Positions 14,730-64,000 of a DNA stretch of 64,000 bases are shown piece by piece; position 1 is the stretch's first letter, and the number at the start of each line of letters is the position of its first letter. The position numbers and the translations under genes are program-made. A model generated the notes under the pieces. It had not been told where the DNA came from and did no database searches. It worked only from the letters and a program-made list of their open reading frames with translations. The DNA is taken from contig NC_087074.1 in the NCBI RefSeq assembly GCF_026151205.1, positions 14,506,667-14,570,666 of the forward strand, given 5' to 3'. The stretch is from Bolinopsis microptera. Its lineage: Eukaryota; Ctenophora; Tentaculata; Lobata; Bolinopsidae.

Positions 14730-15250
14730 TCACGCTACTGATCTATTAGACGGCTTGGTGATGACTTTAGTCGTTTAAACATGCAATGAACGATATTTTT
14801 CTCCAAAATTCTAATATAACCCTGACATTTTAAATGGAACCTCCCCATATTGTCGCGCGTAAGAAAAGGTAACTCCGAGTGCGGTGCAGTGGCGACTTAA
14901 AATAATAGTGGTGTTTATTAAACACACTATATTTATAAATGAATAAGTTCAGTTAGATCAAGGAATGACCTACATCGGAACTGAGTTAAGAAAGTTAGAA
15001 GTCAGCTCTTATTTATACTGCAGTCTACCTACTACCATCGCGCGTTAGGTCTCTTTAACGCGTTACCATAGATAATTTGCAACAATCTATTCAACATGGA
15101 CCAGAAAAGATGGCTATTTCAATAAAAGGCTGTGTTGAGTATTGAACTTGAAGCTCGCGTGAACCACCAACCAAAAGACTGCCTTGAGGCCAATAGACCG
15201 CCTAGCGAGAAGGATTATTGTCAAATACGTTCCATCCGGCTGCAAATATT
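14730..15250. other. RSK intron segment, nothing recognised
   Basis: No coding exon or repeat is recognised between the tandem duplication and the outermost detectable point of the large inverted repeat. Confidence 0.5.
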
Positions 15251-15330
15251 GATTGACATGCGCGTGACCTCATCAGTCGACCGTCGAATCGTTTAGACAA
15301 CACGGACACCAATGTTCCAATATGCGGTAG

Positions 15331-15815
15331 TTAATATTTACCAAAACCCAGAATCAATGTAGAAGTGGACCGCGCTCCAGTGTCTCTCTTGCCCAACAAA
15401 AAGTAAATGATATTAATTTGATTGACCGTTCTCAAATGCAAAATGATACCGAGAATGTAATCGTCCGCTCGCTTTTTGATTATAATGTCAGGGGTAAACT
15501 TTATAAAGCGAAAATATAAACTGATATCTTCATTAATAAGGAGGAAAGTTTCAACGATTTCGAATTTTTCCTTTAAAAAACATTTGTCCTTGTGTTTAGG
15601 AAGCATATCGGTCGATCACTGACTGAATAGTGAATAGGCCACTTAATACGCATTCCAAGGGCATTAAATTCATATATAAGGACATTAAACTGTCGTGGCA
15701 AAGCAAAATTTGGTTTGAAATCACGATGAGCAAATTTCTCACCTTTCGCACGTGCAAACTTTGAGCGGAGGTTTGCGTGCGCATCCAATATTGATTCGCC
15801 GTAAAAGTTTTGCAT
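15331..15815 (-). CDS. Unrecognised open region in two overlapping frames, possible small gene
   Basis: Two minus-strand frames, 15,573-15,815 (80 codons) and 15,331-15,606 (91 codons), join if one base is missing near 15,600; the other arm has an extra C at the matching place (...GCTTCCCTAAAC). The joined product would be about 165 residues, rich in Ile, Phe, Leu and Lys, with stretches such as RDFKPNFALPRQFN and ILGIILHLRTVNQINIIYFL. I do not recognise a family. The mirrored copy at about 63,050-63,925 is broken by frameshifts and by an inserted inverted repeat. It lies antisense in the RSK 9,801-17,251 intron and may be chance or a decayed element. Confidence 0.2.
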
Positions 15816-16499
15816 GATGGGTTATATATAGTTTATAAGCAAGCAAAGTTTCAAATATTTCAAAGAAAACTGAATCACAACGGCACTCTAAAGTTTGAAA
15901 AAATGTCGAAAACAGCAATTTCAGTGATTTTAGCATTTCTATCATTTGGGGGATGTCCCCACGTGTGCAACTTTTCGCTTTTCAACTTTAAAACTAGCCA
16001 ATGCACAATTATACCTATAAAAAGCAGAACTGGAGCTCCACAACCCAAGGCATGGCCAACACCAAGAATAACGAAATCCAAAATTGACGTTTTTAGAAAA
16101 TAATGCTTCAAAAAAGCACAAACTTCAATGACGAATATCTTTATGAAGGAGCAAGAAGCTAAAAAACTTTCCGGTAGATTTTCATAATGCGTGAACATTG
16201 ATCTAGAGGCAAATTTTCCATCAGTTTTTTGAATAAAATTACTCCTTAATGGTTAAAATTAAGTTTAAATTATTAACTTTGTTTAAAATATCAAGTTTAA
16301 AAAGACAACGGAGGACGTCATCAAGGTGTTGCAGAGAGACGCATCCAAATATTTTTTATACAATGTAAACTAAAGTGTAAACAATTAGTTGCAAGACCTG
16401 TGGTCGAAATGCTGTATCTTTTTACTTTGAATCTATGGACACTTAAATTCAGGATACAATTTGACTGGCAAAGCGTCTATCCTGAATATGTAGTATTAA

Positions 16500-16990
16500 A
16501 TAATCACGACAATCGAGCGTAAAACAGGGTTTCTAGAAAACCCACTCCCGAGCCTCGGAAACCTGAACTTTTGTTTGCAGTCGATTTGTCCAACGTCTAG
16601 ACGGCCAGAAAAAATTTTTTTCCAGATCCTAACTCATTTTAACATGGTTTTAAAGGCACCGATTTTCGTATAACAGTGCGGGCGAGTATTTAATGCAAAG
16701 TTCGGAAAATTCTCAACAGAACTATTTTTATTCCGTCATCTTTGACATAAAATTGACAAGTTTTGAACAAAAATAAATCTGCTGACGACTTCCCGATGAG
16801 TCTTTAAGCAGAAAAACTCCTGCTGAGGCGTGGGCCTCGGACAGCCGCCGCCCCGAGTGCACGCTTCGCGTGCACGAAAGAGGCTTGTAACGTGTACCAA
16901 AGGGGTATAATATAAGGGGTATGAAATAAATGGGTACAAGTATACCCCATTAAATGCTACGTCTTGCTTGCAGCACCGTGACAGCGATAG
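16500..16990 (+). repeat. Dispersed repeat family A, copy 1 (left arm)
   Basis: This is the left-arm equivalent of 61,843-62,352. It carries the shared blocks found again in copy 2 at 21,835-22,215: a tract around CAGATCCTAACTCATTTTAA with CATGGTTTTAAAGGCACC, then an ATTCTCAACAGAACTATTTT-like stretch, a TTTGACAT stretch and a GTCATCGGGAAG-type end. The GTGCACGCTTCGCGTGCAC hairpin (16,857-16,875) survives here, while the neighbouring GC-rich hairpin is garbled. Confidence 0.75.
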
Positions 16991-17565
16991 CTCAAAACTG
17001 GGAATAAATTTGTAGAAAAGTTGGTGATATTAATTCCATACGTGCAACAGCAAGACAGAAGCATACCTGACGTCAAACCATAAACTCGCATTATACTGGC
17101 CTTACCCTTAAAAACTGCGCGAGCATATCGCTTCTAGAAACATTCAAAGGGCATAGGTGATATCACCGAATTTATTACAATAGCTTCAGAGTTTCAAATA
17201 TTATTATAAAATACAGATTTAGCTGTTTATATAATCAATTCCCTAGCTAGAGACTAAACAAAAGGCGTTGAAACCTCCCTTCCGACCTACAATCGGTACG
17301 AACGAACTCATTACTTGACACTGAGTTCACTGTTAAGGTACCTAGTGAAGCCCCTGCCGCGCCAGTCAGCGCTGCTTCTCATCCCCCCAGTGAATTCACT
17401 GTATTTAGATGATAGGTATAAAGCAGTTAATTGGATTTACTTTTATATATATTGTTTTAACATTCGAATTCCCCAGTCTCTTTTTTTGAGACTGACATAA
17501 TGTTATCCTCAGATAGTTCATAAGTCGATTCACTTCGGCGCTGCCATTCCTAACAATTAAGTTTT

Positions 17566-17579
17566 GGGGGGGGGGGGGT

Positions 17580-17608
<29 letters not shown>
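17566..17608 (+). other. 43-base poly-G block inside an RSK exon equivalent
   Basis: Forty-two G and one T replace the part of the exon that in the other arm encodes the [12 protein letters not shown] segment. A similar but shorter G block (25,919-25,930) replaces a non-G sequence present in the other arm. Such blocks in one arm only are more likely a base-calling or consensus fault than biology. Confidence 0.85.
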
Positions 17609-17610
<2 letters not shown>

Positions 17611-17963
17611 AGAGATATAAGAGTCACAACAGGAAGAAAATTCCCTTGACTAAAATACCCCTATATCTGAGGAGTAGGAAGTGTTAGATGTTCACTGGCT
17701 TACGATCTTTCTCTCAGTGATATTGAGTTAGTTTGTTAAGTACGAAACTTGAAACAGGAGAGGGAGAGCATAGTTTTTGGTCAGTACGCACTGTACGACT
17801 TTTAAAAGGTGCCGAAACTGTACGAATTTTAAAAAGCTGTCGAGAATTTTACCGAATTTTAAACCATCTGATCCACCGTCCGATTTGAAAAACCTGGACA
17901 GTTTGCTTCGTCAGAGTTTTGCGGCACTATTGGCACTATACAGACAGAAAAACACTAGACCGA

Positions 17964-17984
17964 ACACACACACACACACACACA
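17964..17984. repeat. (CA)n microsatellite
   Basis: About ten CA units in the RSK intron after 17,716. The mirrored (GT)n is at 60,885-60,906. Confidence 0.9.
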
Positions 17985-18819
17985 TCTATTGAGATTATAG
18001 TATAGATGTTTATAATATACCTGGATTCGTTCGTCAATTAGCACGATTATATTTATATTGAGCACATATTTCCAGCCCAAAACATTTCCAAGTTCAGTGA
18101 TTTCATCTGGGATAGATGAACAGTGTTACTTGTCACGGAGGACCATTCTTGCATTGTAAATTGCATTATAGGAGCGAACCCCTGATGTACAGTGGTTTTA
18201 TAAAATCCAGTCGCAAACGGTCCGACTATTGGAGATAAAATAAAATAAATCTCGGTTATGTAAATTCTCGTTATTAGCACCACGCCAGAGAAAATATCGA
18301 GTCTAGACCAGCGAACTTGATGCAGTATACTAATGCAATAAATACACCTCACAGGTTGGAGATGTTACGAGTGGGAATCGAATGAAATAGAATCTGCTTG
18401 TCCAAAGTTGTCGAGCTCTATTAAATTGCAACGTTCATCTATAAATTTCAGCACTGAATTTGCTACTTTTCTATGGAACGATTTGTTGTAGAAACACTGT
18501 TTCAATTCATTAAAGAAAAACTTTAAAGATCTGTTTATAAGTGCTATCGTTAATGTGTGCTGTACATCAATCCTGATCGCCATGATTAATAGTAGTAAAT
18601 ATCGCAAAGAATGCCAAGTAAAATCAGGATATTCGTTGAAAATGAAAATTATTTCCGATCCATGACTCAAAGTGCACAAAAGATCAAGGACAAGGTTAAC
18701 GTCGAGGTTTTTTTTTGTATATGGTAGCTGTCGTCCGTGCCTGCGTGCGTGCCTCGGCGAGCGTACGTGTCCGCCCACTGTCCGGCCTGCGCAAAGTTTA
18801 TGTTGCGCGAAAAACTAAA

Positions 18820-19914
18820 TTAAGGGGGGGGTTCACCGAATTTGTGTAACTTGGTTTCGAGATAGCATAGTTGTTGACCACAACCTAAGACCAGTGACCG
18901 AACTTTTGAGTGGGTCCCGACCCCACCGCCAAACGTGACCAACATCCCAATTTTACGGTGCTCTACTTGTAGCTATGGTTCCTATCTCGTTTAGGAATTT
19001 TCATCCAAGATGAAAAAAAGGACTGAGGTATAGCAAAAAACCATATGACCATATTTGGCATACGCACCAAATTTGATCGATTTTCCCATAAATTGGTCAA
19101 ATATCAATTATTTTTGAAGAAAAACCAACTATATATGAAGGTAAGCCTATACTACACTTTATCATGATTTATCAGCCTCATATCTACCAATTGCGGATTC
19201 TATGTTCAAAAAAAATTTGCGGTCCAAATTCCAAAATTGCACGCTACATTTAAAGTTGGCCGCAAAATTTTTAAAGCCTAACTCAAAATTCGGTCCCAAA
19301 ACTAAGTCATGAGACAAATCTACGTTGATTCTAAAATTTCAGAAAAATATTTTGAAACCCTATGGATTTTCAGTTGTTTGTGAGCGAAGTCATTTTGCAA
19401 AATATCGCAACTGAGATTAGGGCAATTTTGTTCATTTTTTGCGATTATTTAACATAGAAATCTTCATTTAGGTAATACTGAACGATAATCAATAGATAAT
19501 TGTAGATAGGCTTACCTTCCTATAAAGTTGGTTTCAGCTAATGATTGAAGTGACCAATATAATATTTTTGGGCCCCCCCCAAAATCGATCAAATTGGTGC
19601 GTATGCCCTTATAGGGTCATATGGGTTGTTTCTCATAACTCAGTCATTTTTTGCCAATCTTGATGAAAATTCAGCTACAGTGCAGGAAACCACTAGCGAC
19701 AATAAACACTTAATCTGACTGTGGCAGGTTTCCGGTATTGCTAATGTGTCCCAATTTGGACCAAATATGGGCGGTGCCTGCCCCGCGGGCACCGTTTTGG
19801 CGGTTTGGGGCCGGACCCCCTAAAAATGTGGTCACTGGCCAGTTTTGGTCAACTACTATCTCAAACCATTTGTCACAAAAAAATCAGTGAACCCACCCCC
19901 CCCCCCCCCCTAAA
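18820..19914. mobile_element. Foldback (long terminal inverted repeat) element, left-arm copy
   Basis: Equivalent of the cleaner copy at 58,917-60,023. It begins TTAAGGGGGGGGTTCACC and ends in a poly-C/TAAAA end. Both long inverted arms are recognisable: GTAAGCCTATACTACAC is inverted around 19,510, and CATATGACC...GCATACGCACCAA is inverted around 19,595-19,625. Here the two internal arms disagree with each other at many positions, while in the right arm they agree almost perfectly. It lies in the RSK intron between exons 17,716 and 20,731. Confidence 0.85.
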
Positions 19915-21834
19915 ACAATTGTTGGCGGCGCGGGCAAAGGTGCAAGTACGTACAATGTTAATTTCACCAGTACGCATCCCGCTAGGGACTAATTGATAAG
20001 AATACGCATAGTATAGTAGTTTGATTAGTAATGACAATTTTGCAAAAGAGCCGTGCAGGTTGCAGAAAACATATTGGTTACAAAGAAATATACACGATTT
20101 CCAAAGGAAATAGAATATATCAACTGGGCGCGCTCGCCTTCTACGCTCCGCGTACTGCATGGGTTAGAACTGCAAAGACTGGGGGTCCCTCAGGTGGTAA
20201 ATGGAATAATGATCAAATACGCAAACACGATCGGGAAATTGAGCGCTTTCACAAAAAGAAAAGCGCTGCATTCTTGTTTTTTAGTGTCGCTTCTGAAAAA
20301 ATTCTAATGAATTTAAACCATAAAAAAATCTATCATCATATCGATTCCTGAATAATGGTACTGTAGATAAAGAGGTATTTAACCTCGCCTAAAAGCACCG
20401 GTGTTTGAAAAGTACTTATCTATCAAACGGACTCTAGTTAATTTAAAGAGTGAAGTTCTTTCGATAAATCCAAGTTCGAAAATTTATGAAGGCAATTGTT
20501 CTCGACTAATCCCAACTGAAAAAAGGTGCCGACTGTACGACATTTTTTACGACTTTTTTGTATGAACTGAACCAACTATGGGGAGAGCACTACAATTTTT
20601 TGCTATATTATTAGTTTAACATTGAATGACCGTCAGTTAAAAATTTCTAATACATAGATTTCTATTTTAAAAGAGTGCCCTTCTAAATTGGAAATGTAGT
20701 GAGTAGTCCTCTTTTCCCTCCAACTCACAGTTCACAGTGTAGACACATAAATCAGGAGTGGACTCCGCGTCAAGATAATTGACAATTTAATACATCCTGA
20801 GAAGAATTCAGATCTTTGCGATCCCCACTCACCCCAACATTATAATTATAAAGACGTAGTCGATGATGGCAGAAGTGAATTTGAAACTTTTTCGGGTATT
20901 TTTAGTAAGTAAGATAATTTATTTACAATTCAAAATTCAAACAATTTTATGATTCAACGTTCAAAGTACCTCAGTGAGCAAAGCACTCAGACAAATCATT
21001 GCTTACAGAACCAAATTTATTATACTGTGTTCTTGAGATATAACCTGAAAAATGACTGCTGGGATGATAGTTCGAGTCGATGCAGGGAGGGAACTGTTGG
21101 ACCAGAGAGTAACCACATGCTTTCAGTGAGCGTGAAAGCTCGAGCAGCATGTACAGTGTGGTTAAAAACTGTCAACTTTCGCTTCACCAAGAGGGTGTCT
21201 GTAAAAAGTTTAATCTTGTTAATCGTTTAAAACACGAGGTCGTGATCATGATTAGTCACTGCATTTTCACCGAAGTATTAGTAATAGTAATGTTGTCTGG
21301 CTCAACAAAAGAAAAATATATATTCTATAAACTATAACCCAATGCATTTCTAGGTAGCTCACAGAGATTTAAGCCCAGTAATATAATGTACTGTGAACTA
21401 GTCATACAAACCTACCTCTCTCCGGATCGTTGATTTTCGGTTCGCCAAGCTGAGATCAGAAAACGGCCTACTGATACCCCCTGCTATAACCGCGAACTTG
21501 TAGCCCCAAAGGTCGTGGTTAGGTTATTGAACCATTTTATATGAAAAGGGCTGTTTTTAGTAAATATTTACTATTGTCTGTCAGCTGATTCTTTAGTGAA
21601 CCTGTGTCCCTGCATTTAAACTAATCATTTGACGGACAATCCTTGTTACAACCGTTCCACTTTCATATTAAGCCAGCAAGGTTTATTATGCTGCCATTGA
21701 CATTGAGTTTGAGTTCCTCTGTACACGATTTTCTGGGTAAGATTATACACTGGCTGATTAGTAGTAATGTTTCAGTTAGATTATTACGGGATGATGAAGT
21801 ATAGGTAAGTATCTAGAAGTTCACGAAATCTGTC

Positions 21835-22215
21835 GTTAAACAGGTGCCAGGGGCGTTCCTGAAACCTATACTCCTGAAACTTTAAAACACTGTTTTAGCA
21901 GCGTTTGGGCTAACCAAATGCAAAATTTCAGATCCTGAACCTATTTCAACATGGTTTTTAAACACCTGACATATGCATTTTGGAGTTTTTTTTTAAACCG
22001 TTTTAACGCGGCGTATTATATCAAAATATCTTTAAATCTCCACATAGCATGTAAATATTCCTTCATCTTAAACATTGAATTAGAATAGTTTGAAACTAAC
22101 AAATTAACCTGTTGAAAACCACTTCGATGAGCCTAAATGAAAGAAATAATATAATGAGTATAATGGCTGTCGGCTTTGCGTGCCAGCACTGTCCCATGTC
22201 CAGAAGGAAGACACT
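21835..22215 (+). repeat. Dispersed repeat family A, copy 2 (left arm)
   Basis: Equivalent of 56,553-56,945. Shared blocks with copy 1 include CAGATCCTGAACCTATTTCA with CATGGTTTTTAAACACCTG, TGAAACTTTAAAACACTG, CATAGCATGTAAATATTCCT-type sequence and the CAGCACTGTCCCATGTC end. It lies in the RSK intron between the exons ending near 21,736 and starting at 22,580. It lacks the GC-rich hairpins of copy 1. Confidence 0.75.
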
Positions 22216-23341
22216 TATGAGGCTTGTATGTTTCTGATGAAATTTCTGATAATTCCGTAGATTTAAGGTACTAAAACTTTTTAATACTTCACACGACACA
22301 TAACAAATAATTTGAGAACATGTATAATCAACGTTTTAGTTGCACAATTTTCTTTACCTGAAAAAAAGAAGTTACCCTATTTCGCATACGGAAGTATCAG
22401 AAATGTCACAGTGTTAGGTTATGATAGGTGTACAGCTATTGAATACTCTTTCGTAAATGGGTGGATATGTGAACTAGTTCCCTAGAGTAACCAGATGTTA
22501 ACTTTCCAACTTGAACAACTTAAACGTAATAATAAGTTGAGGAGATTTTTGATATCGTCTACAATCGTGTTACTTTCAGCATACGCCATTCGCATTGTCA
22601 GACACAGACAGTCCCCCCGGGACAATTCTAGAAACGAATAGTAAGGGAGTGTTTGACATGACCGCCGTCTTTGAGTCATATCCTCAACGCAAAGGAGCTA
22701 GCAAACTCTTCTGGATGTAGATCCTAGTAGATCTTAATGATTGATGTTCATCGGGTGTTCCAAAGGTGTGGGTAATTTTCAACTACGTATATAAATTGTA
22801 ATTCATTCTGGTAGTAGGAATTTCATTCGTATTAACTATAATGTCCTATTATCTTTAAATATTATAAGGCGTCGGATCACTGCTCAGAAAATAATATCAC
22901 ACTCGTGGATAGCTAAACGTGACAAACTTAACAATTCAAAACTTGAGAGAAAGGGAAAGAACTCCATCAAGGTTAGCAATTGCAAGATGTTTTTTATTTT
23001 AAAAAAGTAATTCTTCATCCACAATTCACATGGACATTGGACTGGCATATTTAAAAGCTGTTATGACCGAACCAATTCCCCTGACTCAAAATAAGACTGT
23101 GTTCAGAATAAAATGTTTGATGCTACCGCTCAGCCCGGAACTCTCCACTCCGGGCCCGAGTTGGCTCCAGTCCAATCTTCCTTCCTCTACCCCCGTCGCA
23201 AAGCAGATAAACCTGTAGCACAAAACCGACAGTATATGAAGTGATCTGATGTGTGACAGACTAGCGAACGAATACATTTGGTCACATCGTGATCTGAAAC
23301 CGGTATTATTTAATGACTTGAATTAATAGATTTGTATCTAC

Positions 23342-23347
23342 AATAAA
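23342..23347 (+). promoter_or_regulatory. Polyadenylation signal of RSK
   Basis: AATAAA lies 124 bases after the RSK stop codon at 23,216-23,218, a normal distance for a 3' end. The matching site in the other arm reads AAGTAAA, one base different, consistent with the general noise between arms. Confidence 0.55.
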
Positions 23348-23349
23348 AA

Positions 23350-26300
23350 GCCGCAACACTCAATACGTGTCAGGCCGGCGCGCATCCATTGGTTTCCCGC
23401 GGAGGAAATCTCCCGGACGTGGTCTTTGAACGTTGGACGCGATTAACCACTATAAAGCTCTGATATCCTCCTGAACGAGGCCGTCCTCAACGTTTCTGTT
23501 GAAGTCTCCGGGTGGGTATCGCGGCGTCCGTCCAGTGGACGTTTTTCTTTGGTTTAAGTTTGTTGGCTGATTCTATTGCTATATAAATACATGGGCCGGT
23601 CTGAAAGACATCTCCCCATTCATTACGATATCATTAATTTAAGTTTATAGTATGAGCCAATTAATAGACATCATTATATAAATCATCAAATTATAAACAG
23701 TAATTTATTTTTGAGAATCTGACGGCCTTTAGTAACCATTATCCTGACATAACCAACAGTGAAAACGACCGATATCAAAAACATCACAAGGATGGATTCT
23801 GCGGTTAACGCGAATTATTTAAGGATTTGTTTTATGAAAAATTGTCACGCTTTATCACCAATTTTGCGTACCTTATTGACCTTTTTATAGACGACTCCTA
23901 TTTGATTATTTTCCCCTGTAATGAGTATGATAAGGGCCGCATATCATTTTGGCCGCTCCCAGTTTGGTTCGTCTCAAAAAGGGCCGATGAGGTATTTTGT
24001 TAACTTAAACTGTAATATTGACGAAATGTAATTTTTAGCGACACTTTGTTAATAAATGATATCACGTCATTTTCTTAAGAAATTATTTTAATCACCAGCA
24101 ACTAACAACTTAATTATTTAGCTATGGTATGGAAGTACTAAAGACCATTTGAGCGGTCCAGATTTCCGAACTTCTTGATTCCATTATTTAACGTATGGTC
24201 TCCTTCACTGTGATTCTCATTACTTTTTCTGTAACTCCCATCTCCTTTATTACCCCCATTTTTGAGTGCTAGTGGAACAGGGTCTGCCAACAATCCGTAG
24301 GTTTACCCCCTTCATAATCACTGTTGCTTCAGAAAGCTAGGAGTTTTTAGATTTTGTATGGTTTGAACCTGAATTTTGGTTCGTTTAATTTTCCAGGCTT
24401 GCCGTCCCAATTTTTCACTTGCTGCCTTACTGTTATACATTATTATAGAGCGTGCGTATATTCTTGACTTGAATTATGAAAGCTATCTTGTACATAATCT
24501 AGGAGAACAGAAATATTATGCTAAATGTGTAATGGCAACTGTAATATGAAGGATGACACGTTGTCATTGAGATAATCCTTCCTTGTCCTCTTAAATGATT
24601 TCATTCCCTATTTCTCGAGAACCGTTTGTCGTCTAGATAAGAAAATCTTGTATCCGAATTTTCTAACATGAAATTAGGGAATTTTGCAAATTGCTTGAAC
24701 AAACTATAAATATTAACGTCACGAATGGTGCAGTTTTTTTCAGAACTTGTAGTGGTGCATCTTTAAAGCCCTACGAATTCCACAGGATAAGAAATTTAAA
24801 ACACAAAATTCTTATCGCTGAACATCACCTTTCAATTTTATGCATAAATAAAGCGAAATTGGACCACCCAAGATGCTAACGTCCACACATCAATACGGGG
24901 CACAGCAAATGTTTTTCCAGAGAAAAATTTTCTAAATCAAAATGGTTTTGCTAGATATAAGTGATTGGAGTCTTTAGAGACATGGGAAGCATATGGATGG
25001 GTGTAGTGGTCTGTATTCCGGGTAGCGATGCAATTTGATTACACCACAGTTACGGTTTATTAAACTTTTACCTGCACTGCCTGTCTGTCCACGGTTTGCT
25101 GCACCCCTTATTTTATTGTTCTGATATAGCTGGTCTTGATTGAAGGCCTCTCTGACCGAGGATTTATTTTTAGATGTAAATACAATAATTTTATTCCTAT
25201 GAAAATCACGAGTTTTAATTTTCTGTGTTTTAATAATATTAATGAAAACTCTTTTTTAAGCGTCAAATAAAATCAAACAATTCTACTCCAGCGTACTTTA
25301 ACATTTAATCGCAATGATGTGTTAATTGAATTAATATAAGGAGCAAAGCACAGTATTTATCAAATAAGTTGGCCAGCTGCGGTTATTTGACATAATGCAT
25401 ATAAAATCTAACATATAAATATTATTGAATCTAATTCTAAAACACTGCACATCGAATCAAATACATGCACATTGTACCTAACTTATTGGCAATCAATTTG
25501 GCGGCTTGAAGTGCCGGACCCATAGTTTAATGATAAAATGATTTTCGGCAAATCAGTTTCACTGTAAGCGATAAAAGATTCCTTCCATATTACCGTAACC
25601 ACCGTAAATAAGGGGGTTTAGAAACGATGCACTTGTGTCATTTGCAAACAGTAGCTATGTGTCCTTTCCCAAGGAGGGGAGGAGTGTAAAATGACAGAGA
25701 ACTAAAATCTGGCATAAGTAATAAATGAACAATTGAACAACTACCAGCTAATCAAACAAATATTAAATATGCAGTTTAAGTTTTAACTGTACAAAACATG
25801 CTCTATACATAATGAATTTTATAGTATAAAAATCTGCAGGTCCCATCTTTACATAATTCATTCGTAGCATATTCATAATCCACGTGGTGGTATGTAATAT
25901 CACAGCACCACAGGGCAAGGGGGGGGGGGGACCAAGCCGTGATGTGTCTCATAGCACATAATCTTGAATCTAAATAACACGTATCTAGCAACCATGAAAC
26001 TTTAGCCAATACCCAGTGGCCAGTATATAGTACTATTGTAATAAAATTAGCCCTAAATTAGGTAACGAAACCATCATGTGTGCAATTTATAAACCGATAA
26101 AGCCGCGCAAATTTAGAAATCCGGGCGCGTGAGCACACTCACTGCACCATAACAAAGTGTAATACCACTAAGCATTGGACTTCGCGGCAGCTGTAAATGA
26201 CATAGATTGTTCCACAACAATATGTCATTTTGACTTTTGAGATATTGCCATGATACGGACCACTACAGCTATAGTCCTGCCAATTAAAACTGGCACCTGA

Positions 26301-27510
26301 AATGAGAACAGAGGAACTGTGCGATGAATAACAAAACTTATCGGGAATGTGAGACATATTGGCTGGCAGCCATGATGCAGTTGGTTCGACCATGCAGTTT
26401 CGCTATGAAACTCGCGAGCATTAATAGTCTTAGGGAACAAGTTGCAACGATGCAATGGTGTCACGAGCCCTTTGGTGACGTTCCAATATCCAGGAACAAT
26501 CGGATCACACTATTAGAGGGCGGCATTTTCGTGACCATCTTCTGAATTTTCTTAAAGTCGAACCAGCCTATTTAATGTCGTTGCATGACTATACGAGAAA
26601 AAGCATTGCTATTTGTATAAAAAAAAATAAACATGCAATGCTCACATGCATTAAAGTTAGTACTTCAAGAACATGCATACTGAGAGTTGGCCTCATGCCA
26701 TACTTTGTAAAGTCACACAAACTGGTCGGTGAATATTATGCAAGTTTTAAAACAATAATTAAAAGTTGACTGCTTCAGTAGATTCAAGTTACTAGGTACT
26801 TACTCTACCCAGGAATGCAAAAGAGTAAGTCACAGATGTTTCGAAGTCCTGAAAAAATTTTAAGGGCAAATTCCGAATCGTTTAATTTTTTGTCGTTTCA
26901 GATTATATTGAGTTAGAACGATGATTTAAAATGTAAAAAAGCGTGTTATTCACGAATACAGATCATTCTACAGTTCTCACTGGACCACGACCTAAGAAAG
27001 CTTCAGCAAACGAAACTCACACCGCTTTATTCTAGACATTCTTACATGTTAGATGCTTCTCTTGACAATCTATGTCATTAAATTAAATGACGGTACCATC
27101 TTATAAGTTACACAAATAAAAGGGGTGTAAGTATAACTTGGATTAATTCTGCTTCTAGTTTGCGGAATCAAAGCCTTGTTGCGTAACTAACCTTACTGTG
27201 TCTGAATCCTAAACTGATAGTTAACATACCTTCAAGTTCGTATGAAGTAATAATGAGCCGAGTTGATGTCTTGTTTTCTCCTTATTTTGTGGTGATGTGA
27301 AGACGGTAACCACCCCGTATTCTGAGTGGGTCGGTGCCGCTCTGCAATATTATAATCAGTTAGTTTAGTAAATTAATCTAGCTGGGTTTGTGTAAAAACA
27401 GTCCGTTTTACCTTATAGGGAATAATGAAGATGTAAACATGTAATGATGAAACGTATTTACAGTGTTTTAAATTGTCTGAATTTAATGAGTATGGAGTAA
27501 AAATTAGTTA
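23350..27510. other. Intergenic or intronic stretch, no gene recognised
   Basis: Several short frames occur (for example 26,324-26,769) and partly persist in the mirrored copy (a shared VSTSRTCILRVG stretch at 26,650-26,690 and 51,980-52,040). None has a recognisable domain or a consistent splice structure. A 12-base poly-G at 25,919-25,930 replaces an unrelated sequence in the mirrored copy. Confidence 0.4.
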
Positions 27511-27514
27511 CACG

Positions 27515-27768
27515 TCAAGACATAGTCAAAAACCTAATCGAGTCCGGAGTCACTGTTATCCTGGAGCGGTGTGACACTCCGAGTGAGTCCGGGGACTCCG
27601 GTCTGGGTTTGGTGGCCAGTTTTTTGAGCAGTCTCCCAGTTCCCCTTTTCTTGGGTTGTGGAGTTTTGTCAAAGAGCTCGTCGAGTCCTGTTTCTCGTAC
27701 CACACGTGGTTCTGAGTCCGTTTGAGAGGACTGATACTAGTCGGGTGTTCGTGAAGAAGTTATCTTGG
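27515..27768 (-). CDS. Putative terminal exon of an unrecognised basic, Pro/Ser-rich protein (left arm)
   Basis: On the minus strand a CTATCTTTCAG acceptor is followed by an open exon. It encodes QDNFFTNTRLVSVLS and then, after an apparent one-base shift, EPRVVRETGLDELFDKTPQP, a basic KKRGTGRLLKKLATKPRP segment, ESPDSLGVSHRSRITVTPDS and a stop. The mirrored copy (50,910-51,166, +) preserves acceptor, stop and most residues but shifts frame elsewhere. Low complexity and charge suggest a disordered C-terminal tail. Upstream exons were not identified and the family is unknown. Confidence 0.4.
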
Positions 27769-27769
27769 C

Positions 27770-29642
27770 TGAAAGATAGAGATGATGAAGTTTCGTGCGA
27801 GGGTCATCTATTTCATGAAGTAGTTAATACATGGCCATTAAGTATTAGTGTCCTGGTTTCTACACGAGGCCAACTAGACTTTAAAATAGAGCTATTAATT
27901 CATAACACCCAAGATGGTACACATTTATAAAACAACCATAGTTTTTGAAGGTAAGGTAAAATACATTTGGAAACCGCAGCTCGAGTCGAGGATAACTGAC
28001 TTGTTTAAAATTTACGCTTAATAACGTCGAGTCATTTGAAAATGCGGGTAAAATATCCCTGTTGTTATTCCAATATTCCTGTTATCGTGCATCTAGATGT
28101 GTCACTGCCCCGCCGAGTTAGTCCCAATACTGATAAATCAATGTGGACAATCTGTCTAAAAAACTCGCTCTATATTGCGGAACGTCCACGCTTGCCCTTG
28201 ATTTTTAGAATTGAAAGAATGTGAAGAATGAATGATATCTATGAATTACATCTATATTCTTTTAATTGTGGCCATGTTTTCGGAGAAATTCGATAAGGTT
28301 GGACAATTTTGATTTAATAAATATGCCTCCAAACCATATTCTGAGGCAGAGAGTGGGTCTATTCTCTAATCTAAATTCTAATAGTGATCTGAGAAAAAAG
28401 GTAGCTGTGAAGAAAAAAACATTTAAATCAAATAATGTAAGACTTGGTCATTACATTTGCCAAGACTTGTTCATTTTCATCCTTGGGATTTTCGTTTTAA
28501 CTTCTAGAACTGGGTTCTGGCATAATTTTGGATGGTGCCCCAAAGTAATCGATATCACTGGGCCTAATAGCATCGACCTCATTTTTATTTTGACGCTGTT
28601 TTCATTTTGAAGAAATCAATTTTATAAACCGTAATTTCTTCAAAATGAGGTTCTACGCAAACAGTAGTCCGCAATGCCAATATAGTTGGGTCGTAATATG
28701 TATTTTTATTTTACAATTGACGAAGACCATCCCATATATAAGATTTGAAGATCAGTCAAATATTCGTGACACTCATCATGATCACATCAGCTTTATTTTT
28801 AGGTTACACTTAATACTCTGTAGTCTAAGACCCTAGCTAGACGGTACGTAACGCGTCACGTAATCGATTAAGCAGCGGAAGTTTTGCTTTTGAAGTTATC
28901 AGTCGCAATCCAATTTCCTTCACCCATCCTCTTATCAGAAAAATATTAGTATCAGTCTGATCGTCTGCGAATTAATTAAAATAGGTTAAAGTCACAAATT
29001 CTTAAAATAAAATGGGATTCTACCAACTAGAAGATTTTCGTACACGCGCTATCCCACAATCTGATCGGGTCAGTATGTAAATATTTCAAGGGCACACGTG
29101 GGGTTTTGATGTCGTCAAAGTGGCTGCAAATTCTCTGCAGTTTCGACTTTCGGAATCTCAATCTCATGCAAACCATTGCATTAGTTACTTTGTCCTATGT
29201 CTCATAATACCATTTCAACACTGAATCATCGTCAGTAATGAACGATCGAACTCTCAATTTCTGACTCGATTTTAACAGGACGATTAAAAAGCTGTAATCT
29301 AAAGTCTCCCGTTCCTACCAAAGATGCTATTTGTTAACGGATCTAATCAAAGGAGCAAAGGTCCTCTAAAATGATTAAAAAATACAACAAATCATCAAAA
29401 AGTTTTAAAAAGCTTATTAGTCATTTTGAAAGTATACAGTCCCAAAAGGGCTTTTTTTTTCGTACTGTTTTTGATAGTCAAATTTGCCTCTGAAATACAG
29501 AAAAAAGTACCATATTTCGGAAGGGTCTGACATAGCTGTATTTGATTCTTGAGTTTTAGTAAATTGCCTGGTTTTGATATAATCTTTTCTCTCACATTAT
29601 AACTTTATTCCTCAAGTTTGGTAACTCAATCTTATATTACAG
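27770..29642. other. Stretch between the basic-tail exon and the secreted-protein gene
   Basis: It contains the conserved 15-bp hairpin at 28,602-28,648. A 60-codon frame (28,036-28,224) corresponds to a cleaner 63-codon minus-strand frame at 50,447-50,638 that reads MRYISLLLFQYSCYRAS near its start. No domain is recognised, and coding status is uncertain. Confidence 0.35.
28602..28648. repeat. Perfect 15-bp inverted repeat (left arm)
   Basis: TCATTTTGAAGAAAT (28,602-28,616) is followed after a 17-base AT-rich loop by its exact complement (28,634-28,648). The same structure is preserved without change at 50,030-50,076. Confidence 0.85.
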
Positions 29643-33555: not shown

Positions 33556-33559
33556 TCTT

Positions 33560-36270: not shown

Positions 36271-36276
36271 TTTCAG

Positions 36277-37668: not shown

Positions 37669-37699
37669 TTATCTATACCGAACTCATTGTCTTAGCCCT

Positions 37700-39340: not shown

Positions 39341-39348
39341 GGGAATTA

Positions 39349-39403: not shown

Positions 39404-39404
39404 A

Positions 39405-42433: not shown

Positions 42434-42439
42434 CTGAAA

Positions 42440-48027: not shown

Positions 48028-49018
48028 CATGACTAAAAGAAGAGTTGGTGTAAGTGGGACTGTAAGTCGTTCTAATTCTCCTCCAATTCTAATCTGTGCC
48101 TCTTGCTTCAAGACTGGGTCCCAAGAAACCAATGTTGGAAATCTTCAGGTCATTCAAAACATAGATACGTAATTGCCCTATACTGGTCCGCGTGTCATGT
48201 GAGGCCCCGGCCATGGTCAGTACTTAAACGGGTGACACGTGTAATGTGGCCATGGGCATTCGGGATGTTGATTACCTCATGGGACCATAGAGGATAAGAT
48301 TGTTGGTTTGTTTTAGGGTTGATAGCAAAATGATTCCCAAGGCCGTGTGTGTTGTCATCCATCACGCCGTCTCCCTCGGGTGACCAAATATCCCCCAGTA
48401 AAAAACTATCCTTTCCATTATCAGAGTAGCACAGTGTAAAACCAGTCTCCCCTACACCAATGACAGGAGCTTCACCTAGTTGTGAACCCCAGGAGCTGTG
48501 TTTCCATAAATAGGTCCTCCCACTGTCACTATGTCTCTGCCAGGGTCCATATCTTTAAATCTTTGAATTTTTGAGACAGAGATTGGTCCAAAGTTTTAAA
48601 CTCATCATCATCCGCCCATTCCCTCATCGTATTCCATGATGTGACCATCTTTTGGATTCAAGTTCATGCCAAGGTACCATGTTGCACACGATTTTTCTTC
48701 CTTTGACTCGAGTCCTGTTGCAGTCTGTTTAAAGTTGTCAGGTTTTCTAAATTAAACAGGTTCATTGTAGATGGTTGGTGAAAGTCAACACTTTCGCTGA
48801 TGGTCCGGAGCAAATCTACTGACACTGCTAACTTTAGTGTCGTCTTCTAATCCATCTCTGGCCAAAGCTAGCTCGATGGCGAAAATCCTGGCCGGAGTTT
48901 CTGCAAATTATCTGGAGAATACCCTCACTTCCGTCCAAAATCTCGGTAGAGTTTTATAGGGCAGTAGTAAGGAGGGATGATGATAGCCGCAACCAAATGG
49001 TACCAATAGCAAATGCAT
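48028..49018 (-). CDS. Putative secreted protein of unknown family (right-arm copy, frameshifted)
   Basis: Mirror of the gene at 29,643-30,657, with ATG at 49,016-49,018 on the minus strand. The best-kept part reads MDPGRDIVTVGGPIYGN, then (after shifts) PVIGVGETGFTL, GDIWSPEGDGVMDDNTHGLG, NHFAINPKTNQQSYPLWSHE and VINIPNAHGHIT. Here the C-terminal part reads more sensibly than in the left copy, whereas the N-terminal signal peptide is better on the left. The mature protein may hold a Gly/Asp-rich extracellular domain. No family recognised. Confidence 0.45.
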
Positions 49019-49019
49019 T

Positions 49020-50905
49020 ATGAGAGAATTGACCTGTATTATAAGATTGAGTTACCAAACTGAGGAATACAGTTTATAATGTGAGAGAAAAGATTATATC
49101 AAAACCAGGCCAATGTACATCAAATCAAGCAATCAAATACAGCTATGTCAGAACCTAAAAATATGGTAATTTTTTTCTGTATTTCCGAGGCAAATTTGAC
49201 TATCAAAAACAGTACGAAAAAAAAAGCCCTTTTGGGACTGTATACTTTCAAAATGACTAATAAGCTTTTTAAAACTTTTGGATGAGTTGTTGTATTTTTT
49301 AATCATTTTAGAGGAACTTGCTCCTCTTGATTAGATAAGTTAAACAAATTGCATCTTTGGTAGGAAAGGGAGACTTCTCAGACTTAACAGCATTTTATTA
49401 CGTCCATGTTAAAATCGAGTCAGAATTGTAGGAGTTTCAGATCGTTCTTACTGACGATGATCTCAGCGTGAACTGATTATTATGAGACATCCGGACAAGT
49501 AACTAATGCAATGGTTGCATTGAGATTGAGATTCCGAAAGTCGAAACTGCGAGAATTTTGCAGCCACTTTGACGAACATCAACACGTGATGCCCTTAAAT
49601 TTAAATACTGAACCGATCAGATTGTTGGATAAGAGCCGTGTACGAAAATCTTCATAGTTGGTAGACATCACATTTTATTTTAAGAAGTTGGGTGACTTTA
49701 AACCTTGTAAGAATTCGCAGACGACAGACCTGAGTACTAATATTTTTGCATACGAGAGGTGAAAGATATTGGAATTGCGACTGATAACTTCAAAAGCAAA
49801 ACTTCCGCTGCTTAATCGATTACGTGACGCGTTACTACCGCTAGCTGGGTCTAGACTACAAGTATTAAGTTGTGAACCCTAATATAAAGCCGAGGTGATT
49901 ATGAGGAGTGTCACGAAATATTGACTGATCTTCAAATCTTATATATGGTTGTCCTTCGTCATTTGGTAAAATAAAAATACATATTAGACCCAACATATGG
50001 CATTTGCGGACTACCGTTTCGAGAAAACCTCATTTTGAAGAAATTACGGTTTATAAAATTGATTTCTTCAAAATGAAAACAGCGTCAAAATAAAAATGAG
50101 GTCGATGCGATTAGCCCATGATAGCGCTTACTTTGGGGCCACCATCCAAATATCCAGAACCCATGCTAGAAGTGAAAACGAAAAATCCCAAGGATGAATA
50201 TGAACAAGTACTTGGCATAATGTAATGACCAAGTCTTACATTATTGAATTTAAATAGTTTTTTGCTTGACAGCTACCTTTTGTCTCGATCACTATTAGAA
50301 TTTAGATTAGAGAATAGACCCATCCTCTCTCCGCCAGATTATCTGGTTGTGGAGCATATTATATAAATCAAATTGGACAACCTTATCCGAATTTCTCAGA
50401 AACATGGCCAAAATTACAAAGAATTAGATGTAATTCCCATAGTTAATCATTCATTCTTCACATTCTTCACATGTCTAAAATCATGCAGCGTGACGTTCAG
50501 CATTAGAGCGAGTTTTTTAGACGGTATGTACACATGATGATCTGTAATCTGGACCAAACTAGTCGGCACCGGACCACATCTAGATGCACGATAACAGGAA
50601 TATTGGAATAACAACAGGGAAATATACCGCATTTTCAAATGACACGTACGTATTAAGCGTAAAAATTTAAAACAAGTCAGTTTTATCCGCGACTCGAGCT
50701 TGCGGTTCCAAATGTTTTTTACGTACCTTTCAAAACTATGGTTGTTTTATAAATGTGTACCACGTGGGTGTTATGAAATTATAGCTCTAATTTTTAAGTC
50801 TAGTGGGCCCTCGTTAAAACCAGAAACCAATACTTAATGCCAAATGTATTACTAATTCATGAAATAAGATGACCCTCGCACGATACTCATCATTCCTCCT
50901 ATCTT
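49020..50905. other. Mirror of 27,770-29,642
   Basis: It contains the conserved hairpin (50,030-50,076) and a 63-codon minus-strand frame (50,447-50,638) with a hydrophobic start. No recognised family. Confidence 0.35.
50030..50076. repeat. Perfect 15-bp inverted repeat (right arm)
   Basis: TCATTTTGAAGAAAT at 50,030-50,044 and its complement at 50,062-50,076 match the left-arm hairpin at 28,602-28,648 exactly. Confidence 0.85.
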
Positions 50906-50909
50906 TCAG

Positions 50910-51166
50910 CCAAGATAACTTCTTCACGAACACCCGACTAGTATCAGTCCTCTCAACGGACTCAGAACCACGTGTGGTACGAGAAACAGGACTCCGACGA
51001 GCTCTGTGGACAAAAACGCCACAACCCAAGAAAAGGGGGAACTGGATCTGCACAAAAAACGGGCCACCAAACCAGAACCGAGTCCCCCGGACTCACTCGG
51101 ACTTGGCCACCCCGCTCAGGAATAACAGTGACTCCGGACTCGATTCAGGTTTTTGAATTGTCTTGA
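50910..51166 (+). CDS. Putative terminal exon of the basic, Pro/Ser-rich protein (right arm)
   Basis: The acceptor CTATCTTTCAG at 50,899-50,909 is followed by QDNFFTNTRLVSVLSTDSEP and RVVRETGL in one frame. The sequence then shifts frame relative to the left copy and ends with ITVTPDS and a nearby stop. The first half is intact here; the second half is intact on the left. Confidence 0.4.
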
Positions 51167-51169
51167 CGT

Positions 51170-54100
51170 GTACTATTTTACTCCATAACTCAATTATATT
51201 CCAGACAATAAAAACACTGTAAATACGTTTCATCATTACATGTTTTACATCTTCATTATTCCCTATAAGGTAAAACGGACTGTTTTTACACAAACCCAGC
51301 TAGATTAATTTACTAAACTAACTGATTATAATATTGCAGACGAGGAACCGACCCACTCCAGATTACGGGGTGGTTACAGTCTCTCACAATCACCACAAAT
51401 AAGGAGAAAACAGCATCAACTCGGCTTCATATCTACTTCATACGAACTTGAAGGTATGTTAACTATCAGTTTAGGATTCAGACACAGTAAGGTTTAGTTA
51501 CGCCAACAAGGCTTTGATTCCGCAAAACCTAAGAAGCAGAATTAAATCCAAGTTAACGTACACCCCTTTTATTGGGTAACTTATAAGAGGAACCGCATTT
51601 TTAAATTTTAAGACAGAGAATGTCAAGAGAACATCTAAATTGTTAAGAACGTCTAGAATAAAGCGGTGAGTTTCGTTATGCCTGAAAGCGTTATAGTCGT
51701 GGTCCAGTGAGAATGTAGAATGATCTGATATTTCGTGAAATAACACGCTTTCTTTACATTAAATCATCGTTCTAACTCAATATAATCTGAAACGACCTAA
51801 AAAAACGGAACGATTCGGAATTTCGCATTTAAATTTTGTAAGGATTCCGAAAACACCCTGGAAATACCTTTTGGTATGCGGGTAGAGTAAAGCTACCTAG
51901 TAACTTGAATCTACTGAAGCAGTCCAACTGTTGATTTATTGGTTTAAAACTTGCTAAATTATCAACGACCGTTGTGGACTTTACAAAGTATGGCATGACG
52001 CCAACTCTCAGTATGCATGTTCTTGAAGTACTAACTTTAAGCAGTGAGCATGCATGTTTATTTGCTACAAATAGCAATGCTTTTTCTCGTATAGTCATGC
52101 AACGACATTAAATAGGCTGGTTCGACTTTAAGAAAATTCAGGAAGATGGTCACGAAAAATGCCGCCCTCTAATAGTGTGATCCGATTGTTCCTTGGAAAT
52201 TGGACGTCACAAAGGGCACCGTAAACATTGCTTCGTTGCAACTTCGTAACTAAAGACCTATTAATGCTCGCGAGTTTCCATAGCGAAACTGCATGGTCGA
52301 ACCAACTGCATCATGGCGGCCTGCCAATATGGTCTCGCATGCCGACTAAGTTTTGTTAATTCCGCACAGTTCCTCTGTTCTCATTTCAGGTGCCAGTTTA
52401 ATTGGCAGGAACTATAGCGTATGTCCGTTTCATGGCAAATACTCAAAAGTCAAAAGACATAGTGTTTGTGGAACATCTATGTCATTTACAGCTGCCGCGA
52501 AGTCCCAATGGATTAGTTGTATACACTTTGTTATGGCTCGCAGTTAGTGTGATCACGCGCACGCGAATTTCTAAAATTTTGCCGGCTTGACGGTTATAAG
52601 TGCACACAGATGGTTTTCGTGACCTAATTTAGGCTAATTTTTATTTACAGTATACTATATACGCCAATGGTATTGGCAAAGTTTCATTTCTAAGAATAAC
52701 CGTGTTATTTCTGATAAGAATATGTGCTAGAACAAAATTCACCGGCTTGGTACAACAGATGAAATGCTGTGTGCTGTGATATTACATACACCAAGTGGAT
52801 CATGAGATTTGACTACGATGGATCTATGTAAATGATGGGACCTGCAGATTTTTATACTATAAAATTCATTATGTATAGAGCAATGTGTGTAACAGTTATA
52901 CTTAAACTGCATATGTAATATGTGTTGATGAGCTGTTGTGTTCCAATTGTTCATTTATGAAATAGGCCAGATTTTAGTTTCTGGCATTTTCACACTCCTC
53001 CCCTCCTTGGAAGACACAAGCTACGGTTTGCAAATGACACAAGTGCAATCGTTTCTAAACCCCCTTATTAAGCTGGCTACGTAATATATGAAGGATCTTT
53101 TATCGCTTACAGGAAACTTGTGTAGCCGAAAAGCCATTTATTATGAAACTAGGGGTCCGGCACGATCAAGCCGCCTAAGTGATTTGCCATAAGTTAGGTA
53201 CAATGTGCATGTATTTGATTCAGATTTGCTTTTTTAGAATTAGGATTCAATAATATTGGAGAGGTGATGAGTTATAGGCATGATGCCAAATAACCGCAGC
53301 TGGCCAACTTAGTTGAATACAATAAGGTGCTTGTGCGCCTTATATTAATTCTATTAACACATCATTGCGATGAAATGTTAAGTACGCTGGAGTAAAGGGT
53401 TTTGGATATATTGATTGGACGCTTATAACAGAGTTGTTCATTCTTAGTGATTAAAACACAGAAAATTAAAACTCGTGATTTTCATAAGAATAAAATTATT
53501 GTATTTACATCTAAAAATAAATCCTCGGTCAGACGAGGACTTCAATAAGCCAGCTCTATCAGAACAATAAAATAACGGGTGCAGCAAACCGTGGACAGAC
53601 AAGGCACGTGGCAGTAAAAGTTTAATAAACCGATAACTGTGGTGTAACTAAATTGCATCGCCTACCCACGGATTACCGCACCAATACACCCATCCATATG
53701 CTTCCCATGTCTCTAAAGACTCCAATCACTTATATCTAGCAAAACCATTTAGATTTAGAAAATTTCTCTGGAAAACATTTGCTGCCATAGGGATGTACTT
53801 TTGCATCCTTGGGTGGTCCAATTTCGCATTATTTATGCATAAAATTGAAAGGTGATGTTCAGCGATAAGAATTTTGTGTTTTAAATGTCCTTAAAAAATT
53901 TCTTAGCCTGTGGAATTCGTATGCGAGCTTTAAAGGGCACAAAAAAGTTCCTGAAAAAACTGCACAATAGTGACTTTAATATATAGTTTGTTCCAACAAT
54001 TTGCAAATTCCTAATTTAATTTTCAGAAATTCGGATACAAGATTTTCTTATCTAGACGACAAACGGTTCTCGAGAAATAGGGAATGAAATCATTTAAGAG

Positions 54101-55500: not shown

Positions 55501-55504
55501 TAGG

Positions 55505-61842: not shown

Positions 61843-62352
61843 GCTGTCACAGTGCTGGCAAGCACGACCGTTGCATTTATTGTGGGTATACTATGTACCC
61901 CCTTTACTATTATACCCCCTTTGGTACACGTTACAAGCCTCTTTCGTGCACGCGAAGCGTGCACTCCGGCCGGAGGCGGCGGCCGAAGGCCACCGCCTCC
62001 GGCAGGAGTTTTTCAGGCATTAAGACTCATCGGAAGTCGTTCAGCAGATTTATTTTTAGTTCAAAACATTCTAATTTGATGTCAAAGATGACAGGAATAA
62101 AAAATAGTTATGTTGAGATTTTTAAGAAATTTGCATAAAATACTCGCCAGCACTGTTATACGAAATTCGGTAAAAAACCCAAAATCGCCATATTCAGGTG
62201 CCTTAAAAACCATGTTAAAATTGAATTAGAGATCTGAAATTTTTCAGGGCGTCTAGACGTTGACCAAATCGACTGCAAAAAAAGTTACAGGTTTCAGGAG
62301 CATCGGGAAGTGGGTTTTCTAGAACCCCTGTTTTACGATAGATTGTCGTGAT
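61843..62352 (-). repeat. Dispersed repeat family A, copy 1 (right arm)
   Basis: This is the cleaner, longer copy of the family also present at 56,553-56,945. It includes the GC-rich double hairpin at 61,946-62,003, which copy 2 lacks. No terminal inverted repeat or target duplication was recognised, so its class is unknown; it could be a SINE-like or MITE-like element. It lies in the RSK intron upstream of exon 61,577. Confidence 0.85.
61946..62003. repeat. Two adjacent GC-rich hairpins with GAA loops
   Basis: First: GTGCACGCGAAGCGTGCAC (61,946-61,964), an 8-bp perfect stem with a GAA loop. Second: GCCGGAGGCGG (61,969-61,979) pairs with CCGCCTCCGGC (61,993-62,003) and encloses a GGCC-GAA-GGCC inner stem-loop (81-91). 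They stand out sharply from the AT-rich surroundings. Confidence 0.85.
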
Positions 62353-62530
62353 ATATATATACATACATATTCAGGGATAGACGCTTTGCCAGTCAATTGT
62401 AACCTGTATTTAAGTGTCCATAGATTCAAAAGTATAAAAGATACAGCCATTTCCGACCACAGGTCTTGCAAATAATTGTTTACACTTTAGTTTACATTGT
62501 ATAAAAAATTATTTGACGTCATAAACACCC

Positions 62531-62548
62531 CTTGATGACGTCATCAAG
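62531..62548. promoter_or_regulatory. 18-bp perfect palindrome containing a CRE consensus
   Basis: CTTGATGACGTCATCAAG is a perfect palindrome centred on TGACGTCA, the CREB/ATF full site; a second GACGTCA half-type site lies about 20 bases away (62,514-62,521). The left arm retains only GACGTCATCAAG. It is intronic, so function is uncertain. Confidence 0.35.
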
Positions 62549-63401
62549 TTGTCCGTTTTTAAAACTTGATTTTTAACAAAGTAATAACTTTAAAAATTAA
62601 TTTTACACCATTAAGGAGTAATTTTATTCAAAATCTGAGGAAATTTGCATCTTAGATAATTGTTCAAGCATTCTGAAAATCTACCGGAAAGTTTTTTTAG
62701 CTTGCTCCTTCATAAAGATATTCGTCATTGAAGTTTGTGCTTTTTTGAAGAATTATTTTATAAAAACGTCAATTTTGCGATTTAGTATTCTCTGGTGTTG
62801 GGCCATGCCTTGGGTTGTGGAGCTCAGTTCTGCTTTTTATAGGTATAAATTGTGCATTAGGCTAGTTTTAAAGTTGAAAATCGAAAAGTTGCACACGTGG
62901 GGACACGCCCAAATTGATAGAAAATTGCTAAAATCACTGAAAATTGCTGTTTTCGTCATTTTCTGTCAACTTTAGAGTGCCGTTGTGATTACAGTTCTTC
63001 TTGAAATACTTTGAAACTTTGCATGCTTATCAAACTATATATAAAACACCATCATGCAAAAATTTACGGCGATTCAATATTGGATGCGCACGCAACATCC
63101 GCTCAAAGTTTGCACGTGCGAAAGGTGAGAATTTTGCTCATTCGTGATTTCAAACACAAATTTTGCTTTGCCACGACAGTTTAATGTCATTATATATGAA
63201 TTTAATGCCAACTTGAATGAGTATTAAGTGGCATATTCACTATTCAGTCAGTGATCGACCGATATGCTTCCCTAAACACAAGGAAATGTTTTTAAAGGAA
63301 AAATTTCGAAATCGTTGAAACTTCCTCCTTATTAATGAAGATATCAGTTTATATTTCGACTTTATAAAGTACCCTGACATTATAATCAAAAAGAGATGAT
63401 A

Positions 63402-63924
63402 TTTTACCAAAACCCATAATCATGGGTAGAGTGGACCGCTGCCAGTGTCTCTCTTTCCCAAACAAAAGGAAATGATATTAATTTGATTGACCGTTCTCAA
63501 ATGCAAAATGATACCGAGAATGAAATCGGTCGCTCGCTTTTCCCATCCATTTACAATTGTAATAGATTAACTTTAAGAAGAACTGCCCAAAGGCAGCTGT
63601 ACTCGGCAATAAAGATTCAATAAACTTCAGCTTATTCAATAAGTTATAACTACCACCCTTGTCCCTTATCCCGAAATACTAGGTATCGACCCGAACGCAA
63701 CCCAAAGAGATTTTTACAGCATCTGATTGATGTAATCAATCGAAACTTATTTATACAATTCGTAAGCCGTGAATGAATGGGAAAAGCGAGCGACCGATTT
63801 CATTCTCGGTATCATTTTGCATTTGAGAACGGTCAATCAAATTAATATCATTTCCTTTTATTTTGTTTGGGAAAGAGAGACACTGGCAGCGGTCCACTCT
63901 ACCCATGATTATGGGTTTTGGTAA
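63402..63924. repeat. Near-perfect inverted repeat (about 145 bp arms, 234-base centre) unique to the right arm
   Basis: 63,402-63,544 and 63,779-63,924 are inverted copies differing essentially by one 5-base indel. The second copy is the collinear sequence shared with the left arm (15,325-15,470); the first copy and the centre 63,545-63,778 have no counterpart there. It may be a foldback insertion or a local strand-switch duplication. Confidence 0.85.
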
Positions 63925-64000
63925 ATATTAAATACGCATATTGGTAACATTGGTGTCCGTGTTGTCTAAACGATCGAACGGTCGAATGAGAGGTCACAGC

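Follow-up and report, generated by a model that had tools for sequence, protein, structure and literature searches.

A giant inverted repeat in the Bolinopsis microptera assembly is very probably an artefact of a fold-back long read used as gap fill

We evaluated a giant inverted repeat in a 64,000-nucleotide stretch of the genome assembly of the ctenophore Bolinopsis microptera (GCF_026151205.1, contig NC_087074.1, hereafter C3, positions 14,506,667–14,570,666; “the window”), with searches against the whole assembly (264,652,675 bases in 232 contigs). Overall, our analysis indicates that this palindrome is very probably an assembly artefact, in which a gap was filled by a fold-back long read, i.e., a read of a template followed by its own complement. 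The turn of the palindrome lies inside a block with roughly 10–14% error (11.28–48.3 kb), this block is flanked by clean sequence on both sides, and the clean flanks overlap end to end once one of them is reversed. The original prediction had offered two possibilities, a real palindrome or a fold-back chimeric read, and had noticed neither the uncorrected centre between clean flanks nor their overlap. Of these two possibilities, the fold-back read is now strongly supported, and the real palindrome has lost ground.

The inverted repeat itself is present in the deposited sequence, and is larger than the ≥48 kb first claimed. Self-BLAST returned one reverse-complement alignment of 15,469–63,396 onto itself, spanning 50,064 columns at 82.8% identity with gaps counted, and this inverted similarity is far above the chance level. 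Single-base gaps made up 1,121 of the 1,471 gap events between the arms, and gapless columns in the left half of the alignment were 90.5% identical. When fetched flanks are included, mirrored pieces can be followed out to 8,496 on the left side and to 69,497 on the right side: the arm does continue past the right edge of the window, as had been proposed, and the proposed start at 15,250 was wrong. Beyond these limits, homology ends, weak short matches aside, across the flanks covered (10 kb on the left, including 2.5 kb of N, and 26 kb on the right). The high inverted identity (~85–90%) initially reported also stands, but not as a uniform figure, since gapless identity in 500-base bins is 89–97% at left coordinates 15–30 kb and 83–91% from ~30 kb to the turn. 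The almost spacer-free turn, for which ~25 bases within 39,350–39,400 had been suggested, is a loop of 27 bases in this interval (Table 1). Finally, the arm interior at 49,500–53,500 had two matches in the genome, both inside the window.

The noise has sharp limits, and the mirror runs on past both of them. On the left, the limit falls within a dispersed 1.48-kb repeat, which we compared to each of eight genome copies: per 100 bases, the first ten bins displayed 0–7 differences, mostly 0–3 (the value of 7 was seen for one copy only), and the later bins displayed 12, 7, 16–18, 19–20, and 10 differences. The clean sequence on this side (hereafter contig A) stops at ~11.28 kb, with the quality break at ~11,275 inside this repeat. 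On the right, a change-point was placed at 48,273 (support interval 48,141–48,529, log-likelihood gain 80), after which the sequence is clean again (hereafter contig B). The change between clean and noisy sequence is thus abrupt at both ends of the block (~11.28 kb and 48.27 kb), as expected for an inserted fill. The cleanness of contig A was judged from 10,275–11,270, which matches one copy elsewhere at 99.2% identity (five transitions and two transversions), and from a segment shared with contig B (8,496–10,277). For contig B, the stretch 62,360–63,396 carries 4–6 private differences per ~1,050 bases relative to 10 genome copies, vs 145–152 in the mirrored left stretch, and 61,850–63,396 differs from a copy by 16 transitions and 13 transversions; for the rest of this contig, cleanness was judged from the steady rate of arm-to-arm differences across 15.5–30.4 kb. 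The last ~50 bases of contig B before its right-hand junction look noisy. Separately, the noisy left arm includes a run of ~43 G (17,566–17,608), for 42 bases of which the clean right arm has no counterpart, and which is probably a read error.

The differences between the arms are independent, read-like errors and not mutations. As yardsticks, we used dispersed repeats that lie in the arms and have copies elsewhere in the genome. Relative to a 3,603-base copy at C1:16.45 Mb, 380 positions were changed in the left arm and 431 in the right arm, with 42 positions changed in both vs 45 expected by chance, and 10 identical changes. Given so few changes common to both arms, the C1:16.45 Mb copy itself can be considered clean. 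The same pattern was observed for a 0.68-kb repeat compared to nine genome copies, whose median mutual distances are 0.3–1.5%: across 692–703 columns, 80–82 differences were private to the left arm, 88–89 were private to the right arm, and 13–20 were shared. At the turn, six genome copies of a transposon end are mutually identical, and the 164 columns compared included 22 differences private to the left side, 18 private to the right side, 3 shared, and 3 at which all three sequences were different. Both arms therefore carry their own errors, as a fold-back fill would.

The error spectrum is equally unlike that of ordinary repeat copies. When the left block at 15,469–29,500 is compared to clean contig B, mismatches amount to 4.3%, insertions to 4.2%, and deletions to 5.5%, with 546 transversions vs 68 transitions. 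Control pairs of repeat copies displayed transversion-to-transition counts of 20:20, 24:27, 5:7, and 4:5; a fifth pair yielded 112:20, because its member at C3:2.8 Mb looks noisy itself. The errors are also directional. Read in the window's plus frame against C1, T>G changes outnumber A>C changes by 71:14 left of the turn and by 68:16 right of it, and the same excess is seen in the 0.68-kb repeat (12:2 on the left, 23:3 on the right) and in the left block relative to clean contig B (219:28). The counts 71:14 and 68:16 are not different (P = 0.69), whereas the mirrored table (16:68) gives P = 7e-18. The bias thus keeps one direction through the turn, and since it is not mirrored there, the differences do not belong to the arm sequence, and are as expected of one continuous read. 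The same read on both sides of the turn is the simplest inference, and the noisy block most likely represents a single fold-back read. We further infer that the noise across this block is raw error of PacBio continuous long reads (CLR).

The turn is located within the end of a transposon. The transposon is interrupted ~180 bases in, after which the sequence turns back, and an uninterrupted copy of its host repeat at C1:16.451–16.458 Mb loses the match at 39,211. When aligned by eye to six ends of three genome copies, the loop bases track the transposon terminal sequence with read errors, and 3–4 bases match at the foot of the loop, also by eye. As the loop is the transposon's own sequence, it leaves no room for an adapter, and a missed sequencing adapter at the turn was rejected on this comparison, which was visual and involved no search with an adapter sequence. 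Nor was the turn seen to be a self-contained 326-base element that recurs elsewhere: among the at least 80 matches listed, only the window matches the full 201-base query.

Without the turn, the clean pieces form a linear order. The shared segment of contig A matches the outermost part of contig B (67,046–69,497) over 1,766 aligned bases, with two substitutions and four gap events, i.e., a piece of 1,341 bases (2 substitutions and 3 gap events) and a piece of 425 bases (no substitution and 1 gap event). Since the two contigs share this terminal sequence, placing reversed contig B after contig A gives an ordinary linear arrangement. Judging from its presence on one side, the 1.48-kb repeat next to this overlap is probably a heterozygous insertion.

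Taken together, these observations suggest how the false palindrome may have arisen. The true order would be contig A and then reversed contig B with an overlap of ~1.8 kb, where the heterozygous 1.48-kb insertion probably kept the two contigs unmerged. The scaffold would have placed contig B the wrong way round, as the overlap indicates, and the gap closer would have sought a read leading from contig A to the wrong (inner) end of contig B. With contig B reversed, ordinary reads of the locus are unable to bridge these two ends, while a fold-back read can. Such a read would have been inserted uncorrected over ~37 kb, turning at 39.38 kb, i.e., ~180 bases inside the terminal repeat of the transposon, round a 27-base genomic loop. 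This turn would most likely come from a DNA end that snapped back on 3–4 matching bases in library making.

Long-read gap closing is documented for the published Bolinopsis microptera assembly: the pipeline included PacBio CLR, wtdbg, HiRise, TGS-GapCloser, Purge Haplotigs, and Pilon, with 97.23% of bases placed in 13 chromosome-scale scaffolds (PMC10232365). The genome is described as 265 Mb in 13 chromosomes, with a published scaffold number of 346 (PMC11797021) vs the 232 contigs in the genome searched here. According to its published description, TGS-GapCloser retains scaffold order and orientation, and bridging reads are chosen for each gap (PMC7476103).

The right flank of contig B is a false splice as well. 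From window coordinate 69,501, i.e., past the window, the sequence is a 4-kb repeat array also found at C3:18.905 Mb and other places, and it is noisy relative to the C3:18.905 Mb copy (118 transversions vs 25 transitions). At C3:18.905 Mb, a dispersed repeat matching 68,682–68,982 directly precedes the array. The offset to the window is 68,504 for this dispersed repeat and 68,505 for the array, which matches from position 996 of the C3:18.905 Mb locus. The 517 bases between the two are unrelated to the window, and are part of the array at all three further loci fetched (from four other long matches), with 97.6–98.7% identity. Equal spacing with unrelated sequence in between shows that the filler was spliced by projected distance: the gap closer may have anchored a read on the dispersed repeat and cut it at the projected contig end, so that the outer gap of contig B would have been wrongly filled with a read from an array like that at C3:18.905 Mb. 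With the right flank a false splice, nothing else speaks even apparently for the arm having a second chromosomal context. In other words, a real palindrome would be expected to have different genuine flanks on both sides, and the right flank here is spliced array. This second uncorrected fill starts at C3:14,576,167, i.e., at window coordinate 69,501, reaches at least coordinate 90,000, and includes a 4-kb tandem array, the units of which are 83–85% identical with an excess of transversions, a difference that is probably largely read error.

Three other explanations were considered. We estimate a low probability for a real, very young palindrome with arms of ~30 kb, which would have been collapsed by the assembler and spanned by one honest, uncorrected read. 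Here the noise would be technical and the turn genuine, resulting from snap-back repair of a broken chromosome end in the terminal repeat of the transposon, and such an in vivo snap-back would indeed leave an identical fold, with short matching sequence and a 27-base loop. In line with a young palindrome, only 2 substitutions separate the clean outer parts, and contigs A and B as assembled are unlike in their flank and in one repeat insertion; however, the separate right flank of contig B is a mis-splice from an array elsewhere, and contig A and reversed contig B already form an ordinary linear sequence. A real palindrome would have clean, near-identical arms up to the turn; in the assembly, noise affects the two arms within ~9 kb of the turn, and the underlying sequence could still be identical. 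The turn is, however, confined to the noisy block with an error bias running one way through it. A young palindrome would also be consistent with the lack of a linear continuation past the turn, i.e., the other end of the transposon joined to the rest of the host repeat, since none of 11 matches included the expected junction by coordinates; for a fold-back fill, this result is neutral to mildly adverse. An old inverted duplication, with arms diverged by 10–17% through mutation, would account for one collinear inverted alignment of 48 kb at 83% identity. It is nonetheless hardly credible, and the error spectrum, the strand bias, and the private changes led us to reject it: the arms depart independently from near-identical copies elsewhere, transversions outnumber transitions eight to one, the strand bias is not mirrored, there are abrupt breaks in quality at 11.28 and 48.27 kb, and no more than 2 substitutions separate the clean outer arms. 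We attach just as negligible a probability to a head-to-head join of two haplotype contigs, made by the scaffolder without any fold-back read. A plain join would leave clean sequence or N at the turn, whereas the turn lies within a continuous noisy block that displays the same read-direction bias on both sides, such that the read of one molecule most likely crosses it. The left-only 1.48-kb insertion and its uninterrupted site on the right do look allelic, as this join would predict, but this haplotype difference belongs within the fold-back explanation instead.

Along with the missing linear continuation, several points weigh against a gap filled by a fold-back read. The case is built on assembled sequence, from which the count of reads crossing the turn is deduced. 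The published TGS-GapCloser includes a correction of candidate reads, albeit as an omittable step (PMC7476103), and the block at 11.28–48.3 kb was touched neither by gap-closer correction nor by Pilon polishing. The array-bearing right flank requires a second false fill, for which separate evidence is given above. In addition, T>G and A>C changes are found at 24:5 in the noisy stretch at C3:2.8 Mb and at 13:13 in the fill to the right of contig B; since the bias also occurs at C3:2.8 Mb, it marks the direction of a read and not its identity. Finally, the passages on fold-back artefact reads in PMC12870357 do not report CLR reads.

Table 1 Features of the inverted repeat and its surroundings, in window coordinates.
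Feature	Position	Strand	Remarks
Clean contig A	1–11,280	+	2,500 N to its left; 8,496–10,277 shares its sequence with the outermost part of contig B
Dispersed 1.48-kb repeat	10,275–11,753	+	Left side only; right arm has an uninterrupted site
Putative uncorrected gap fill, ~37 kb	11,280–48,273	+	Left arm from 11.28 kb, turn, and ~9 kb of return
Dispersed 0.68-kb yardstick repeat	33,451–34,125	+	Mirror at ~44,578–45,250
Yardstick repeat part	35,581–39,211	+	Mirror at 39,540–43,133; clean copy of the larger repeat at C1:16.45 Mb
Two mirrored transposon-end copies, ~165–183 bases each	39,211–39,536		Terminal inverted repeats of ~0.84–0.90 kb
Turn, 27-base loop	39,363–39,389		Between CAAGG (39,358–39,362) and CCTTG (39,390–39,394)
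Clean contig B	48,273–64,000, on to ~69,490 past the window	+	Reversed relative to contig A

Beyond the inverted repeat, the run of 2,500 N lies directly left of window base 1, and an array with a 48/96-base period is found left of this run. Two open reading frames of ≥150 amino acids were listed in the window, one of 178 amino acids with a TTG start in an arm (noisy block) and the other outside the arms, in a list where intron-split genes are invisible. Contig A includes an open frame of 415–416 amino acids on the minus strand (6,029 to ~7,279), and a Pfam search with its 415-amino acid version (6,029–7,276) returned no family. By motif, the 416-amino acid version (6,029–7,279) looks like a possible sulfotransferase. 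Ten stop-to-stop frames of 92–119 amino acids lie within, or at the border of, the portion of clean contig B that falls in the window, and a tRNA scan with a bacterial-code program identified no genes. Ahead of the shared repeat at C1:16.45 Mb, a frame of 177 amino acids has the look of a retrotransposon-protein fragment, by eye only. Elsewhere on C3, the stretch at 2,795,350–2,803,962 looks uncorrected, with 112 transversions vs 20 transitions relative to a C1 copy and 24 T>G vs 5 A>C changes, and such uncorrected fills seem to exist elsewhere in the assembly.

If this reading is correct, a spurious 48-kb palindrome, and probably also a spurious second repeat array, can be dropped from consideration. 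More generally, false palindromes can be identified in an assembly without recourse to reads, by using dispersed repeats as clean yardsticks, by contrasting transversions with transitions, and by establishing whether the direction of the error bias continues through the turn or is mirrored there. Gene counts, duplicate counts, and repeat dating need care, both here and in the other uncorrected fills of this assembly.

Natural palindromes, e.g., those of primate Y chromosomes, have large mirrored arms homogenised by gene conversion and a short spacer, and are seen in independent reads. The inverted repeat described here resembles them in its large mirrored arms and short spacer; in contrast, its inner arms differ by read errors, and its turn lies within one noisy block. 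A closer parallel may be found among technical artefacts. Palindromic PacBio reads have been described after whole-genome amplification, where they result from polymerase switching and harm assemblies (Pacasus, PMC6218980). The likeness lies in artificial palindromes within error-rich long reads, and a difference may lie in their origin, as the palindromes of the Pacasus case derive from amplification. Fold-back artefact reads, in which a read continues into its own reverse complement and the two halves are often separated by few bases or none, have likewise been identified as technical artefacts (Breakinator, PMC12870357), although the PacBio samples presented there included hardly any. The palindrome in the window shares with these reads its mirrored halves and short turn, and differs from them in having been built into a chromosome sequence, via a gap fill, as an asymmetric structure with ~28 kb out and ~9 kb back within the fill.

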